Source: Alistipes sp.
Lineage (GTDB): Bacteria; Bacteroidota; Bacteroidia; Bacteroidales; Rikenellaceae
Direction of reading: 5' to 3'
DNA length: 32,296 bases
Assembly: GCA_017631285.1 (NCBI GenBank)
Contig: JAGBTO010000052.1
Location: 1-32,296 of the forward strand
Shown here: piece after piece, positions 6,488 through 27,990 of the stretch
Numbering within the stretch: the stretch's first letter is position 1
How the letters are laid out: each line of letters starts with the position of its first letter
Position numbers and translations under genes: made by a program
Notes under the pieces: generated by a model
What the model saw: the letters and a program-made list of their open reading frames with translations, nothing else
The model's database searches: none
Told to the model about the DNA's origin: nothing

Positions 6488-7207
6488 ATGAAAAAACTTG
6501 TCATAATCCCCACCTACAACGAGATTGACAACATCTCGAAGATGATTGATACCGTGATGACCCTCGCGGGTAATTTCGACATGCTCGTCATTGACGATGG
6601 CTCACCTGACGGCACCGCTGCCGTAGTAAAAGAGCGTCAAAAAGAGTTTCCTACACGTCTTCACCTTTTGGAGCGCAGTGGAAAACTCGGCTTGGGCACA
6701 GCATATATCATGGGATTTAAGTGGGCATTGGACAAGAATTATGACTATGTGTTTGAGATGGATTGCGACTTCTCGCACAACCCCAACGACTTGGAGCGAC
6801 TATACGAACGAGCAGAAGAGGGAAACGACGTTGTCGTAGGCTCGCGTTATGTCCAGGGTGTCAATATCATAAATTGGCCCATGTCACGCCTATTGCTCTC
6901 ATACACAGCCTCAATGTACGTTAGATTTGTCACCCGCATGCCTGTTTGCGACGCTACGGCAGGATTCGTATGTTATTCACGTCGAGCGCTACAAACCATC
7001 GACCTCGACAAGGTGCAGATGAAGGGTTATGGATTCCAGATTGAGATGAAATACTCAGCATGGCGCTTAGGTCTGAAAGTCAGCGAGGTTTCAATAGTCT
7101 TCACCGAACGACGCGAAGGCGTTTCAAAGATGAATACAGGCATCTTTGGCGAGGCCTTGTTTGGAGTATTAAAGCTTCCTCTACGCAGAATACGCGGCAG
7201 GAAATAA
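6488..7207 (+). CDS. GT2 glycosyltransferase, dolichol-phosphate-mannose-synthase-like
   Basis: A GT-A fold family 2 enzyme of the polyprenol-phosphate mannose synthase type, which moves a sugar from a nucleotide donor onto a lipid phosphate at the cytoplasmic membrane face. Seen: N-terminal VIIPTYNEIDNI, VIDDGSPDGT, the metal-binding DCD at residues 92-94 within EMDCDFSHNP, VGSRYVQG, and the acceptor loop CDATAGFVCYSRRAL. At 239 residues it is the soluble catalytic domain alone, without the C-terminal GtrA-like membrane domain of longer homologues; notably, a free-standing GtrA protein lies at 10945-11439. Sugar and acceptor are not certain. A terminator follows. Confidence 0.9.
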   Translation: MKKLVIIPTYNEIDNISKMIDTVMTLAGNFDMLVIDDGSPDGTAAVVKERQKEFPTRLHLLERSGKLGLGTAYIMGFKWALDKNYDYVFEMDCDFSHNPNDLERLYERAEEGNDVVVGSRYVQGVNIINWPMSRLLLSYTASMYVRFVTRMPVCDATAGFVCYSRRALQTIDLDKVQMKGYGFQIEMKYSAWRLGLKVSEVSIVFTERREGVSKMNTGIFGEALFGVLKLPLRRIRGRK

Positions 7208-7422: not shown

Positions 7423-7426
7423 ATTG

Positions 7427-7498
7427 TGGCCCCGAAAGGATTCGAACCTTCATCGTAAGAACCGGAATCTTATATTCTATCCATTGAACTACGGGGTC
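7427..7498 (-). tRNA. tRNA-Arg (anticodon CCG)
   Basis: The minus strand folds as a tRNA: acceptor GACCCCG with CGGGGCC, D-stem GTTC/GAAT, anticodon stem TAAGA/TCTTA with loop TTCCGGT (anticodon CCG, reading CGG), a short variable loop, and T-arm GAAGG-TTCGAAT-CCTTT with a terminal G-T pair. The discriminator is A and CCA is not encoded. The second acceptor pair is A2-C71, a mismatch; all other acceptor pairs are Watson-Crick. The rest of the fold is sound, so the gene is probably functional. Confidence 0.95.
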
Positions 7499-21157: not shown

Positions 21158-21904
21158 ATGAAACTTTTAGAAGGCAAGGTTGCTTTGGTAACAGGTGCCA
21201 CACGCGGCATTGGCAAGGCTATCGCACTGAAGTTTGCCGAGCACGGAGCCAATGTGGCATTCACCTTCCGTTCATCGGCGGCGGCTGCCGAGGAGGTTAC
21301 CAAGCAGTTGGAGGCCCATGGCGTGAAGGCTATGGCCTTTGCTTCCGATGCTTCGTCGTTTGACGATGCTCACAAGGTTGTCGAGCAGGTGGTGGCCGAG
21401 TTTGGCAGAGTGGATGTGCTGGTGAACAACGCTGGTATCACCAAGGATGGTCTGATGATGCGCATGTCGGAGCAGCAGTGGGACGATGTGATAAACAACA
21501 ACCTGAAGTCGGCATTCAACTTCACTCACGCCCTGACTCCCGTTATGGCGAAGCAGCGCAGCGGCTCAATCATCAACCTATCGTCGGTTGTGGGCGTCGC
21601 GGGCAATGCGGGGCAGTGCAACTACTCGGCTTCAAAGGCGGGCATGATTGGACTCACGAAGTCGATTGCCAAGGAGATGGGCCCTCGTGGCATACGTGCC
21701 AACGCCATCGCCCCAGGCTTTATCGAAACCGACATGACAAACCAGCTCTCCGAGCAGGTGCGCGAGGCGTGGGCTCAGCAGATACCTCTGCGTCGTGGCG
21801 GCACACCCGACGACGTGGCAGGCGTGGCGTTGTTCCTGGCGAGCGATATGTCGGGCTATGTGAGTGGTCAGGTGATAAACTGCTGTGGCGCGATGAACTG
21901 CTAA
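21158..21904 (+). CDS. fabG: 3-oxoacyl-ACP reductase
   Basis: NADPH-dependent SDR that reduces 3-ketoacyl-ACP in each elongation cycle. Seen: TGATRGIGK near residue 12, NNAG at 90-93, Ser142/143, and Tyr156 and Lys160 in YSASK, and the IAPGFIETDMT substrate loop. The 248-residue length fits. The C-terminus (VINCCGAMNC) is Cys-rich compared with the common GGM ending. It closes the fab unit; a terminator starts about 30 bp after its stop and the repeat-flanked element begins only 82 bp downstream. Confidence 0.97.
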   Translation: MKLLEGKVALVTGATRGIGKAIALKFAEHGANVAFTFRSSAAAAEEVTKQLEAHGVKAMAFASDASSFDDAHKVVEQVVAEFGRVDVLVNNAGITKDGLMMRMSEQQWDDVINNNLKSAFNFTHALTPVMAKQRSGSIINLSSVVGVAGNAGQCNYSASKAGMIGLTKSIAKEMGPRGIRANAIAPGFIETDMTNQLSEQVREAWAQQIPLRRGGTPDDVAGVALFLASDMSGYVSGQVINCCGAMNC

Positions 21905-21985: not shown

Positions 21986-22019
21986 AATTACAAATTACAC
22001 TCATTACAGGGGTGTAATC
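21986..22019 (+). repeat. Left 34-bp terminal inverted repeat
   Basis: Exactly the reverse complement of 23792-23825. It begins AATTACAAATTACACTC, then ATTACA-GGGG-TGTAAT, so repeat orientation flips at the GGGG (22009-22012). Identity beyond the 34 bp stops at once outside (GCT versus ACA). Confidence 0.9.
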
Positions 22020-22220
22020 GGTGTAATTGTGTAATCAGTGTAATTGTGTAATTACTGTAATCACTGTAATCGGTGTAATTATGTAATTACTGTAATCGTG
22101 TAATCACTGTAATTACTGTAATCGTGTAATTACTGTAATCGCTGTAATTACAGTAATCGTGTAATCAGTGTAATCAGTGTAATCACTGTAATTGCTGTAA
22201 TTATGTAATTATGTAATTAC
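22013..22220 (+). repeat. Left array: 24 TGTAAT units of 8-9 bp
   Basis: 208 bp parse without remainder into 24 units: 16 of 9 bp and 8 of 8 bp. Every unit is TGTAAT plus a linker; one (unit 17) has AGTAAT. Linkers are CGG, CAG, CAC, CGC, TAC, TGC, TG, CG and TA: always pyrimidine then purine, then optionally G or C. Units are direct repeats within the array. Confidence 0.95.
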
Positions 22221-22255
22221 TACTACTTATTATTATATATATATATTTACTATTA
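22221..22255. other. AT-rich tract between left array and ATPase gene
   Basis: A tract made only of A, T and a few C, including alternating TA, between the inner end of the left array and the ATPase stop codon at 22256-22258. Easily melted DNA next to repeat arrays is typical of origins, but here that is only suggestive. Confidence 0.5.
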
Positions 22256-23458
22256 CTACTGCTGCATACAACTTATCATACCCTCGTTGTCGCTGACCAA
22301 GCCACACTGGATGGCTCGTGTAATCTTCACTCGAGCATTACCTATTGATATATTAAGCGACTCCATCAACTTGTTTGTCAGCTGCTGGCGTTCGGCCACA
22401 CCTCCAAACACCTCGCGCAGGATACGCACACAATCATTCTCCTTCTTTGCCGACTCGTACTCCTGGGGGTCACACTCGACAGGTATGCCCAGACCCATAC
22501 ACTCCTCGGGCAAGAATTCGGCATCATGGGCTGGCTCAATCTTAAAGGCGAAACGCTCGAACTCCTCGTTGCGGCAGTTGTGAGGCTCGACAAAGCTCAC
22601 ATCGCCAACCTTATGTACATACATAATACTTTCAACCTTACGCATAAGTGTTGAGCCGAGGTGTCCACGCGCCTTGTCGGAGTTAGGGTTGGCGTGCAAC
22701 ACACACATTATGTGACACTTAAACACCGACGAGAGAGTCAGCAGAGAAGATACCAGAGCTTCGCTGCTCTCCAGGTTGTTGATATTGTCCATCAGGTCAC
22801 TCACGCCATCGACAACCACCAGCCGTGGCTGATAATACTCGATAGCACTCTTCATAAGGTCGAGACGTCGCACAGGTGACTCCTCGCGCAGGGCGAGCAG
22901 GTTGATTTTAGGATGAGGCACATTGTGCGGCAGGCTACACATGTTGTTTATACGCCACAGCACTCGCTGAATGTGGGCACGCGACTGTTCGGTATCAATC
23001 CACAACACCTTACACATAGTACTCTCGATACCAAACATCTGACGCTTCAGATGGTCAATCAGCGAAGCTACTATGGCTGTGCAGAGAAATGTCTTTTTAC
23101 TCTTTGCCTCACCCACCACGGCCGATATGTTACCCTCCGAGCAGATGACCTTGTCGAAGCGTTTGACAATGGGCGTTACGGGAGGTATGGAGTCATAGGC
23201 CGAGAGTATGTAGTGTTCAAATTTTTGACGCAACTCTTCTCGGTAAATACGGTCGAGTTCAGCTTTGATTATTCGCTGTTCCTCGGCTCGTTGCAATTGA
23301 TACTCACTCTCCAACTCTTTCATAGCAGCCTCCTCTTCAGGGGTGAGTATGTTGTCGCAACTGCTTGTAGTTGAGTAGTTAGCACCATTCTCATACCCCA
23401 CCACCCCACTCGACTCGACAGGCTGGGGCTCAGAGGATAGTAAATTGTTTTGTTCCAT
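22256..23458 (-). CDS. RepA-like AAA_25 family ATPase with C-terminal winged helix
   Basis: A 400-residue protein. Residues 1-85 are charged and helical. A RecA-fold core follows: variant Walker A GEAKSKKT at 116-123 (Lys where the last Gly normally is, as in many Bacteroidota AAA_25 proteins), WIDTEQS at 153-159, Walker B LVVVDG at 213-218, and LHANPNSDKARGHLGS at 254-269. These match RepA/KaiC-like hexameric ATPases used as replicative helicases by plasmids and mobilizable elements. The last 60 residues (VFGGVAERQQLTNKLMESLN, then SIGNARVKITRAIQCGLV) look like a winged helix. It is the only gene in the element, has its own promoter, and has no primase or recombinase next to it. Binding to the TGTAAT arrays is a hypothesis. 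Confidence 0.85.
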   Translation of the reverse strand: MEQNNLLSSEPQPVESSGVVGYENGANYSTTSSCDNILTPEEEAAMKELESEYQLQRAEEQRIIKAELDRIYREELRQKFEHYILSAYDSIPPVTPIVKRFDKVICSEGNISAVVGEAKSKKTFLCTAIVASLIDHLKRQMFGIESTMCKVLWIDTEQSRAHIQRVLWRINNMCSLPHNVPHPKINLLALREESPVRRLDLMKSAIEYYQPRLVVVDGVSDLMDNINNLESSEALVSSLLTLSSVFKCHIMCVLHANPNSDKARGHLGSTLMRKVESIMYVHKVGDVSFVEPHNCRNEEFERFAFKIEPAHDAEFLPEECMGLGIPVECDPQEYESAKKENDCVRILREVFGGVAERQQLTNKLMESLNISIGNARVKITRAIQCGLVSDNEGMISCMQQ

Positions 23459-23515
23459 AAAATAGACTTTTTAGAATATTAAACTTCAATAGATATTACG
23501 TTTGGTTTGTCGCCA

Positions 23516-23523
23516 CAAATATA
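23516..23523 (-). promoter_or_regulatory. Promoter -7 box of the element's ATPase gene
   Basis: The minus strand reads TATATTTG, an exact match, 57 bp upstream of the ATG at 23458 and about 70 bp inside the right array. The element thus carries its own promoter, and read-in from the right array side is not required. Confidence 0.6.
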
Positions 23524-23591
23524 ATACAAGAATTGAACTTTGATACTCTATTTAGCAACTATTTGTTAAATTATTTTACTTTACGCTGATA

Positions 23592-23802
23592 ATTACACAA
23601 TTACATAATTACAGTGATTACAGTGATTACAGCGATTACAGCGATTACAGTAATTACACAATTACACCGATTACACTGATTACACCGATTACAGTAATTA
23701 CACAATTACACTGATTACACCAATTACAGTAATTACACCGATTACACGATTACAGTAATTACAGTGATTACAGTAATTACACAATTACACTGATTACACC
23801 CC
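23592..23802 (-). repeat. Right array: 24 TGTAAT units in inverted orientation
   Basis: Read on plus as ATTACA units: 24 copies, the last ending in CCCC at 23799-23802; spacing gives 17 units of 9 bp and 6 of 8 bp before it. On the minus strand the linkers obey the same pyrimidine-purine-(G/C) rule. Linker order differs from the left array except for a shared run CAG-TG-TAC-CAC near the outer end, offset by two units. Confidence 0.95.
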
Positions 23803-23825
23803 TGTAATGAGTGTAATTTGTAATT
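23792..23825 (-). repeat. Right 34-bp terminal inverted repeat
   Basis: Perfect reverse complement of 21986-22019. Contains the CCCC orientation switch and ends TTTGTAATT. The next bases, TGTTTTTCC, differ from the left flank. Confidence 0.9.
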
Positions 23826-23835
23826 TGTTTTTCCG

Positions 23836-23919
23836 CCGCCGAGGGGAGAGTACCAAAGGGCGAGTGCCGAAGGGCGAGTGCCGAGGAATGAGTGCCGAGG
23901 GGTGAGTGCCGAAGGGTAA
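23836..23919. repeat. Six tandem 14-bp repeats outside the element
   Basis: Six consecutive 14-bp units of the type GTGCCGAAGGGCGA (23850, 23864, 23878, 23892 and 23906 are unit starts; a diverged first unit starts at 23836). They are unrelated to the TGTAAT arrays. A minus-strand open frame crosses them but has no protein-like features. Confidence 0.85.
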
Positions 23920-24050: not shown

Positions 24051-24752
24051 ATGAGCCAAAGAGATGTTATTATTGCGTGCGACTTCAGCTCGGCTGAGGC
24101 TACGCTCGAATTCCTTGACAAATTCACCGATTGCAAGCCTTTCGTTAAGATTGGCATGGAGCTTTACTATGCGGCAGGCCCTGCCATTGTGAAGGCTATC
24201 AAAGACCGTGGTCACAAGATTTTCCTCGACCTGAAACTGCACGACATTCCCAACACCGTGAAGAAGGCTATGGCGGTGTTGTCGAAGATGGATGTCGATA
24301 TGTGTAACCTCCACGCAGCAGGTACTATCGATATGATGAAGGCTGCCCTCGAGGGCTTGACTCGCCCCGATGGCACTCGCCCAATACTTCTTGCCGTGAC
24401 ACAGCTCACCTCGACAAGCGAGGAGCGCATGCAGCGTGACTTGCTCATTGGCGCATCAATCAACGACACCATCGTTCACTACGCCAAGAATGCCCAGCAG
24501 GCAGGCTTGGATGGCGTGGTTTGCTCTCCGCTGGAGGCAGGCATGGTTAAGGAGGCTTGCGGTGCAGGTTTCATCACCGTGACTCCGGGTGTTCGCTTCG
24601 CCGATGGCGAGGTTGGCGACCAGGTGCGCATCACCACCCCCGAGCGTGCAAAGCTCATTGGCACCGACTTCATCGTCGTAGGTCGTCCTATCACCCAGGC
24701 CGCTGACCCTGTGGCAGCCTACAAGCGTTGCATGGCAGAGTTTGCCGAATAG
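24051..24752 (+). CDS. pyrF: Orotidine 5'-phosphate decarboxylase
   Basis: Last step of UMP synthesis: decarboxylates OMP. The catalytic DxKxxDIPNTV signature is at residues 60-70 (Asp60, Lys62, Asp65), with MELYYAAGP before it, VTPGVR for phosphate binding, and FIVVGRPIT at the C-terminus. At 233 residues it is the short, Bacillus/E. coli-like subfamily; many Bacteroides have the longer form of about 270 residues. It starts the pyr-pur block and is separated from pyrE by a 296-bp structured spacer, so the two may be separately controlled. Confidence 0.96.
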   Translation: MSQRDVIIACDFSSAEATLEFLDKFTDCKPFVKIGMELYYAAGPAIVKAIKDRGHKIFLDLKLHDIPNTVKKAMAVLSKMDVDMCNLHAAGTIDMMKAALEGLTRPDGTRPILLAVTQLTSTSEERMQRDLLIGASINDTIVHYAKNAQQAGLDGVVCSPLEAGMVKEACGAGFITVTPGVRFADGEVGDQVRITTPERAKLIGTDFIVVGRPITQAADPVAAYKRCMAEFAE

Positions 24753-26799: not shown

Positions 26800-27990
26800 A
26801 TGGTAAAAATTGGAACACCAATGACCCCCGTGGGCAAGAAGGCTATCCTGTGCGGCTCGGGCGAGTTGGGTAAGGAGGTGGCTCTTGAGTTGCAGCGTTT
26901 TGGTGTAGAGGTAATTGCACTCGACAAGTACCCTAATGCACCTGCCATGCAGGTAGCACATCGTTCGTATGTACTCTCGATGCTCGACGGCGAGCGCCTG
27001 CGTGAGATTATCGAGAAGGAGAAACCTGATTATATCATCCCCGAGGTGGAGGCTATCGCCACACCCACGTTGGTCGAGCTGGAGAAGGAGGGCTACAACG
27101 TAATCCCTACGGCTAACGCCACACTGCTCACCATGAACCGCAAGGGCATACGTCAGTTGGCAGCCGAGGAGTTGGGCATACCTACATCACCCTACTGCTT
27201 TGCAGCTACCCGCGAGGAGTTCGATGCTGCTGTTGAGAAGGTCGGAACGCCATGTGTCGTGAAGCCTATCATGAGCTCGTCGGGTCACGGTCAGAGCGTC
27301 ATGCGCTCAATAGAGGATGCCGACAACTCATGGAAAATCGCCCAGGAGGGTGGTCGTGCAGGTGGTGGCGAGGTCATCGTCGAGGGCTTTGTGAAGTTCG
27401 ACTATGAGATTACGCTCCTCACCGTTCGTCACTCGGGTGGCACACTCTTCCTCAACCCTATCGGACACCATCAGGTGGATGGCGACTACCGCGAGTCATG
27501 GCAGCCACAGCCTATGAGCGATGTTGCTCTGAAGCAGGCACAGGAGTATGCCAAGAAGGTCACTGACGCCCTGGGCGGCTATGGTATCTTCGGCGTTGAG
27601 CTCTTCGTATGCGGCGACCAGGTACTCTTCAGCGAGGTATCACCACGACCACACGACACAGGTATGGTTACAATGATTTCGCAGGATTTGTCGGAGTTCG
27701 CATTGCACGCTCGTGCGGTGTTGGGTCTGCCTATCCCAAAGATTAACTTCTTCGGCGCAAGTGCATCGAAGGCAGTTGTTGTGGAGGGCGACAGCGACAA
27801 GGTGGTATTCGGCAATCTCGAGGAGGTGTTGGCAGAGCCCGATGTTCAGGTACGCATCTTCGGCAAGCCCGAGGTGAAGGGTCACCGCCGTATGGGTGTT
27901 ATCCTTGCCCGTGGCGAGAATGTGGAGGATGCCCTGGCAAAGGCCGAGAAGGCATACTCGAAGCTCGAGGTGGAGGTATTGCCACGATAA
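26800..27990 (+). CDS. purT: Formate-dependent GAR transformylase
   Basis: ATP-grasp enzyme that uses formate and ATP to formylate glycinamide ribonucleotide in purine synthesis, an alternative to folate-dependent PurN. Seen: N-terminal [28 protein letters not shown], the ATP-grasp lid segment [32 protein letters not shown] and the metal-binding [15 protein letters not shown]. At 396 residues it is standard. It follows pyrB by 22 bp, so pyrimidine and purine genes are probably coexpressed here. No terminator is seen before the GH43 gene 48 bp on. Confidence 0.96.

Follow-up and report, generated by a model that had tools for sequence, protein, structure and literature searches.

What is a lone gene for a RepA-like ATPase doing between two large, mirrored arrays of a short DNA word, in the midst of fab and pyr genes? 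The question is raised by positions 21986-23825 of a 32,296-nucleotide stretch of Alistipes sp. (assembly GCA_017631285.1, contig JAGBTO010000052.1), here called the window. A preliminary description had reported a single 400-residue AAA_25 gene, flanking inverted arrays of 24 TGTAAT each and perfect 34-bp ends, and this layout is confirmed; its interpretation as a whole, in which the ATPase may recognise its arrays and drive replication, excision or copying of the unit, is partly supported. Comparison with relatives indicates that the unit is mobile, and the family-wide pattern exceeds the single locus in both strength and strangeness. In the reading that we favour and consider probable, the element belongs to a single-gene mobile family, in which a RepA-type ATPase encoded between inverted palindromic word arrays reads the word through a predicted winged helix and joins the ends.

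The element and its ATPase

Sequence, repeat and fold computations delimit two arms. The left arm (21986..22221, plus strand) begins with the 34-bp perfect end (21986-22019), includes the palindrome ATTACAGGGGTGTAAT (22003-22018) and continues with 24 TGTAAT words directed toward the gene. The right arm (23590..23825, minus strand) is its mirror copy, with 24 TGTAAT words on the minus strand, the palindrome at 23793-23808 and the 34-bp end at 23792-23825. The 34-mer AATTACAAATTACACTCATTACAGGGGTGTAATC is found at 21986 (plus) and 23792 (minus) with a perfect match, complementarity between 21986-22044 and 23767-23825 reaches 95%, and the longest pair covers 104 nt (86%). Counted strictly, there are 24 GTAAT cores in the left inner array, 23 of them exact TGTAAT, and 24 exact words out of 24 in the right one; the remaining 30,456 bases of the window contain 7 TGTAAT and 14 ATTACA. 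Words follow one another solely at 8 or 9 bp (15 steps of 9 and 8 of 8 on the left, 17 and 6 on the right). They are almost invariant and the spacers are, by eye, loosely Y-R-S, as would be expected of binding sites. Each end is furthermore palindromic, with three reversed words outside, a GGGG/CCCC loop and the long array inside, a feature missed by the preliminary description. In single-stranded form the ends are computed to fold into hairpins far better than shuffled sequences (z -5.9 and -6.9), and the same computation gave z values of -2.3 and -3.4 for two palindromes from relatives. Immediately outside the right arm lies a tandem 14-bp repeat, GCCGAAGGGTGAGT, in 5.7 copies (23838-23917).

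The sole large open reading frame (ORF) between the arrays, at 22256..23458 on the minus strand, encodes the 400-residue ATPase, characterised here by the ORF list, a profile match and an alignment-based model. The AAA_25 profile (PF13481) scored 50.9 bits against a cut-off of 27, and no other family exceeded its own cut-off in this protein. In the model, the best fold matches are RepA, RadA and DnaB, with RSF1010 RepA at the top, which agrees with the RepA-like ATPase proposed earlier; no convincing relative of solved structure was found by sequence. The ATPase is thus predicted to be a RepA/RadA-type helicase, with its core at residues about 80-335 and a C-terminal winged helix at residues about 342-398. 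A defence-system reading was rejected, the ATPase having no PADLOC match. Neither the ORF list nor the profile search revealed a recombinase inside the unit, whose apparent absence had already been pointed out.

Distribution and mobility of the unit

The nearest named record is a Rikenellaceae metagenome-assembled genome (MAG), and Alistipes and Tidjanibacter are the source names that appear in the top 120 of 977 homologues. Within the window's genus, 73 of 180 genomes gave a match at E <= 0.001, remote matches counted. A total of 83 loci, a few of them from outside the genus, were split by score into 62 close homologues, 19 remote ones and two relics. An inverted pair within 500 bp on each side was found for 40 of the 55 close homologues with enough flank and for 0 of 18 remote AAA_25 genes (excluded from both counts are relics L026 and L032 as well as seven close loci and one remote locus with short flanks); around ordinary ORFs of at least 280 residues, in 16 fetched neighbourhoods, the figure was 1 of 73. 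Homologues are thus flanked by arrays, whose absence the preliminary description had named as an argument against itself. By eye, the best pair is an array of a TGT-type word in 30 of the 40. Arm-to-arm identity inside one element is 76-100%, and at least 82% except in two elements. The words vary across elements (TGTAAY, TGTTAY, TGTGAC, TGTTCG, GTGAT, GTGAA and others), and both arms of one element agree. In 29 of the 40, no more than 30 bp separate the stop codon from the downstream arm. Four draft contigs (L086, L087, L093, L095) end near arrays; because draft contigs end close to arrays, array counts from MAGs are likely lower bounds.

When 16 element pairs were compared, the gene was alignable, as was the upstream stretch in most of them, and the arms mostly were not. 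Homology started 69-267 bp before the start codon in 11 of the 16, at -55/-136 in one and inside or at the gene in four. In the window, this upstream stretch (23459..23589, minus strand), by eye a putative promoter, is with the gene the part that tends to stay alike where arms differ.

The locus is not fixed, empty sites exist and second copies of the arrays exist, which bears out the mobile unit proposed at the outset. In the window, the element is inserted between fabG (21158..21904, plus strand) and pyrF (24051..24752, plus strand), in a neighbourhood that comprises fabF, fabG, pyrF, pyrE, pyrB and purT. Among 29 pyrF loci fetched from relatives, 16 have fabG adjoining pyrF without this element; inspected by eye, 14 of these intervals contain no word array, that of G119 has an isolated palindrome and that of G069 a bracket made of a different word. 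The G069 locus (L134) holds approximately 0.9 kb between TGTTGCG arrays at the same site as the window's element, and the fabG-pyrF interval is possibly an insertion hot spot. A second possible hot spot is the interval beside valS, which carries ATPase elements in several genomes (L021, L165, L170, L173, L151), one of them flipped.

An element of G130 (contig C2) is absent from G098 despite flanks that are 93-94% identical, the join in the latter reading GCCGAG-GTAATGTAACTT-CG. Between G162 and G126, a 981-bp stretch that spans the larger part of the gene and the downstream arm has 98.7% identity; homology ends at the arm's outer edge, and the genes downstream differ between the two species. 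At least one outer edge of the unit is sharply defined. Of the 124 flanks of the 62 close loci, 109 were long enough for a flank-sharing test, and homologous genes on both sides occurred in only three groups, in one of which the unit, itself devoid of a recombinase, is flipped (L170 versus L021 and L165).

Arrays also occur without the gene. The array DNA of G176 gave exactly four matches (E <= 0.001), which form two mirror pairs, one enclosing the ATPase and the other approximately 0.6 kb without it, where mechanical ORF calling found 65 and 123 residues only. Comparable ATPase-less pairs are present in G027, G003 and G122. The ORFs in such pairs (65 and 123 residues in L197, the longer entering an arm; none in L198; 74 in L208; 68 and 63 in L209, overlapping with arms) had no match to the ATPase beyond short array pieces. 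In addition, two relics in G029 retain arms around a gene fragment.

Arrays around host genes

The palindrome RTTACAGGGGTGTAAY has 32 exact matches, distributed over 10 of 121 genomes of the genus with one to seven per genome, and the backward control has none. The full gene is present in five of these 10 genomes, gene pieces at contig ends in one (G128), and the gene is absent from four. The exact matches form 10 brackets of less than 3.1 kb, of which four enclose the ATPase and six other genes, namely tgt (G130, G098), purT (G130), valS (G110), a luxR-type regulator with a hemerythrin gene (G015) and a WYL regulator (the window's own genome). In G130, seven matches make three brackets, where arithmetic gives a chance expectation of about 0.07 close pairs. 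Host-gene bracketing and the change of word from lineage to lineage were both unforeseen by the preliminary description.

As judged from sequence comparison, the bracketed genes appear not to have moved. The gap between pyrB and purT is below 35 bp in five of five relatives (G098, G000, G069, G119, G033), and in G130 an array lies between the two; purT in the window (26800..27990, plus strand) is unbracketed, and arrays of the same type enclose its orthologue in G130 in situ. We rejected import of the bracketed purT from elsewhere as the main cause: G130 purT is closest to that of G098 among the five compared (88.7%; neighbours 90-93%), and therefore it was the arrays that arrived. The window's genome shows the arrangement bcp, array, WYL, array, dnaA, this dnaA consisting of the last 11 residues at a contig end and being a weak match. 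In G069 and G119, an array lies past the WYL 3' end and none between dnaA and WYL, which suggests that the array on one side was there first and that its mirror copy was added afterwards; the alternative is that the array was lost in both relatives. Of the four arms that make up the ATPase and WYL brackets, three have the 34-mer end in common. We know of no mechanism for a rearrangement that brackets host genes in place.

Further repeats were observed around these loci. In G130, the TGTAAY arrays that enclose tgt and the ATPase gene are directly adjoined by arrays of a second palindromic family, TTTAGGGAG...GCAAAAGC...CTCCCTAAA (L091:5600-5720 and 6985-7100; L089:5330-5420 and 7040-7165), and similar arrays are seen in L016-L018, L021, L168 and L169. 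Nested brackets, with a second inverted pair of another repeat outside the first around the same ATPase gene, occur in L008 (244-314 and 1819-1889), L013, L017, L020 and L021. In G015, two more word palindromes lie upstream of the bracketed ATPase (L035:5100-5800) and one lone palindrome on another contig (L084), standing among copies of another intergenic repeat, GTCATTGCGAGG...GTGGCAATCTC. A structured-RNA reading was rejected, since at Rfam gathering scores the sole match in the window was a tRNA-Arg (anticodon ccg; 7426-7498, minus strand).

Does the ATPase read the word, and what moves the unit?

The preliminary description had suggested that the ATPase may recognise its own arrays. Words were read by eye from the printed arms; 55 of the 62 close loci were readable, 54 of them with A, T or G at base 4, and removal of the near-duplicates L141 and L151 left 52 loci for an analysis of 338 columns. 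Residue 377, in the predicted recognition helix, was the most informative of all columns about word base 4. Valine occupies this position in 10 of 11 A words, 3 of 25 T words and 2 of 16 G words (Fisher 1.9e-6), and 2 of 1000 label shuffles reached its value in any column. At residue 373, T or S accompanies 13 of 16 G words and 5 of 36 others, and D373 occurs in four TGTTCG elements on two tree branches; L159, whose downstream word was read as TTCG-like, lacks D373, and L152 and L158 have it with no word label. Mean information above shuffle was 0.18 bits in the helix, 0.07 in the core and 0.03 in the remaining domain. Residue 377 had already been compared with the first 33 labels before the others were added; among the 21 later labels, V377 is found in 1 of 1 A, 1 of 11 T and 0 of 9 G words, so that A words are hardly tested there. 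On the ATPase-core tree, base 4 (54 labels) takes 22 changes against a shuffled mean of 23.8, with 71 of 300 shuffles as low, and does not follow that tree; the early set of 33 words in seven classes showed weak clustering (15 changes, shuffled mean 18.7, 4 of 300 as low). The covariation of the predicted helix with the word thus supports recognition of its own arrays by the ATPase, and the case that it may bind its own arms is good but not decisive.

Because gene and arms occur at differing sites and the predicted helix varies with the word, the unit likely moves by recognising its own ends. It is probably a RAYT/REP-like selfish unit, driven by a word-reading ATPase with a borrowed nuclease. 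Many ATPase subunits would load on the word arrays, and the loaded ATPase would melt or bridge the hairpin ends and pass them to a host or trans nuclease, or to the host replication or repair machinery; we infer this hand-over because the unit encodes no nuclease. The unit would work like RAYT/REP, a helicase-type ATPase replacing the HUH transposase. Lone palindromes would mark former sites as footprints or target sites as landing pads and, together with the GTAATGTAAC stretch at the empty G098 site, they fit imperfect excision or a word-like target. More tentatively, a RecA-fold winged-helix helicase without a nuclease could represent a new class of transposable unit that mobilises itself, gene-less copies and bracketed host genes through its reading of a lineage-specific word repeated along the mirrored hairpin ends, and in which word and reader switch together during evolution.

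A number of observations weigh against the probable reading of a word-reading, single-gene mobile family. No nuclease or recombinase is encoded in the unit, which leaves the cutting step unaccounted for; arrays around unmoved host genes are not what a plain transposon model would lead one to expect, and the proposed mechanism does not explain the addition of a mirror copy across an unmoved gene. No mirror pair within 500 bp was detected in 15 of the 55 close homologues (two have a pair farther out and 12, by eye, a one-sided word array), and in 10 of the 40 positive ones the best pair is, by eye, a repeat other than a TGT-type word, the word pair being nested within that repeat in L021 and L170. 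G069, G098, G110 and G119, drafts that are 75-83% complete, carry the palindrome and no gene. At the one resolved empty site (G098) a clean target-site duplication is absent and the GTAATGTAAC stretch, a candidate footprint or target word, is present; the G126 contig ends inside the unit, leaving the upstream edge beyond it. As to the protein, no profile supports the winged helix in profile searches of the ATPase, and the C-terminal 67 residues folded alone from the single sequence give one long helix; we trust the alignment-based winged helix of the two models, and the conflict stands. Finally, core columns 259 and 126 come near residue 377 in information (0.37 and 0.34), so that shared ancestry explains part of the covariation, and an independent-pairs test gave 3:0, too few pairs to decide.

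That an unrelated transposase or recombinase encoded elsewhere moves arrays and units, with the ATPase as a passenger or array-binding regulator only, seems unlikely. Such an enzyme would account for a unit without a nuclease, arrays without the gene, bracketed host genes and the further array families around the same genes. However, in this genus the inverted arms accompany the ATPase family, the predicted recognition helix varies with the word, and a search of 16 genomes for Y1 transposases, which did not extend to DDE, serine or tyrosine enzymes, found none. We regard as improbable an iteron reading, in which the arrays would act as iterons for a unit of replication or partition, a RepA-like helicase would be loaded on them and the whole would be a reduced integrated replicon. 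The best fold match to RSF1010 RepA, the iteron-like tandem words of 8-9 bp and remote homologues on Bacteroidales plasmids and on phages point in that direction, but there is no primase, initiator, relaxase or mobilisation gene in or beside the unit, none of the 18 plasmid and 17 phage records covers 80% of the protein, and identity is 29-39% among the matches listed (10 of each). Moreover, two mirrored arrays are an unusual layout for iterons, and gene-less copies and bracketed host genes would be left unexplained. A protein-bridged loop or invertible segment that controls the enclosed gene and is fixed by selection rather than selfish spread, which would suit the in-place bracketing and the flipped unit (L170 versus L021 and L165), is highly improbable given that brackets are gained and lost between close relatives, words differ among species and no function common to the bracketed genes is apparent.

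Among known systems, RAYT/REP is the nearest working likeness, sharing one gene between inverted palindromic repeats; further copies are dispersed here as well, but in low numbers. RAYT and REP sequences change together. In one account, the RAYT ORF always lies between two inverted REPs, with more copies scattered between neighbouring genes (PMC2817692), and REPs usually exceed 100 copies per genome according to published excerpts. Here, by contrast, the protein is an AAA_25 RecA-fold ATPase and not a Y1 HUH enzyme, each end carries as many as 24 short words in an array instead of a single REP, and each genome has a handful of loci, with whole host genes bracketed. The Y1 profile (PF01797) matched in none of 16 genus genomes, and a control found it in 5 of 14; membership in RAYT/REP fails because the protein lacks a Y1 domain and the profile is absent from those 16 genomes. 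Compared with the hexameric helicase RepA of RSF1010, also AAA_25, the model has an extra long N-terminal helix and the predicted C-terminal winged helix, and the gene is bounded by its own arrays with no surrounding replicon. Insertion sequences and miniature inverted-repeat transposable elements share inverted ends, full and gene-less copies with common ends, and empty sites; unlike them, the unit contains no DDE or other transposase gene, its ends are unconserved between close homologues, and one empty site shows no clean target duplication. With regard to the transposition helper ATPases IstB, TnsC and MuB, for which an IstB/TniB-type AAA+ fold and a DDE transposase partner are the hallmarks, the best folds here are RepA, RadA and DnaB among the matches listed, and no partner gene is present in the unit. 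The TAACTGA repeats of Beggiatoaceae, also found in a few Bacteroidetes, are likewise short intergenic words in tandem; the available part of their description gives direct-copy sets, which in the main genome comprise two to six copies each, and no mirrored pair or linked ATPase (PMC4679880), whereas the arrays here are mirrored and linked to an ATPase. Among the titles and abstract openings listed from the open-access literature, none describes an ATPase gene bounded by such arrays.

To our knowledge, all autonomous DNA elements known so far carry a DNA-cutting or DNA-copying enzyme. The sole gene here encodes a helicase-type ATPase; even so, the unit shows ends, empty sites and derivatives without the gene, and its location differs between species. 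The 54 elements with a readable word form a natural set that pairs predicted winged helices with target words and could be used to derive a recognition code. If the ATPase is indeed the driver, transposition could be run by an end-reading motor and a borrowed nuclease.
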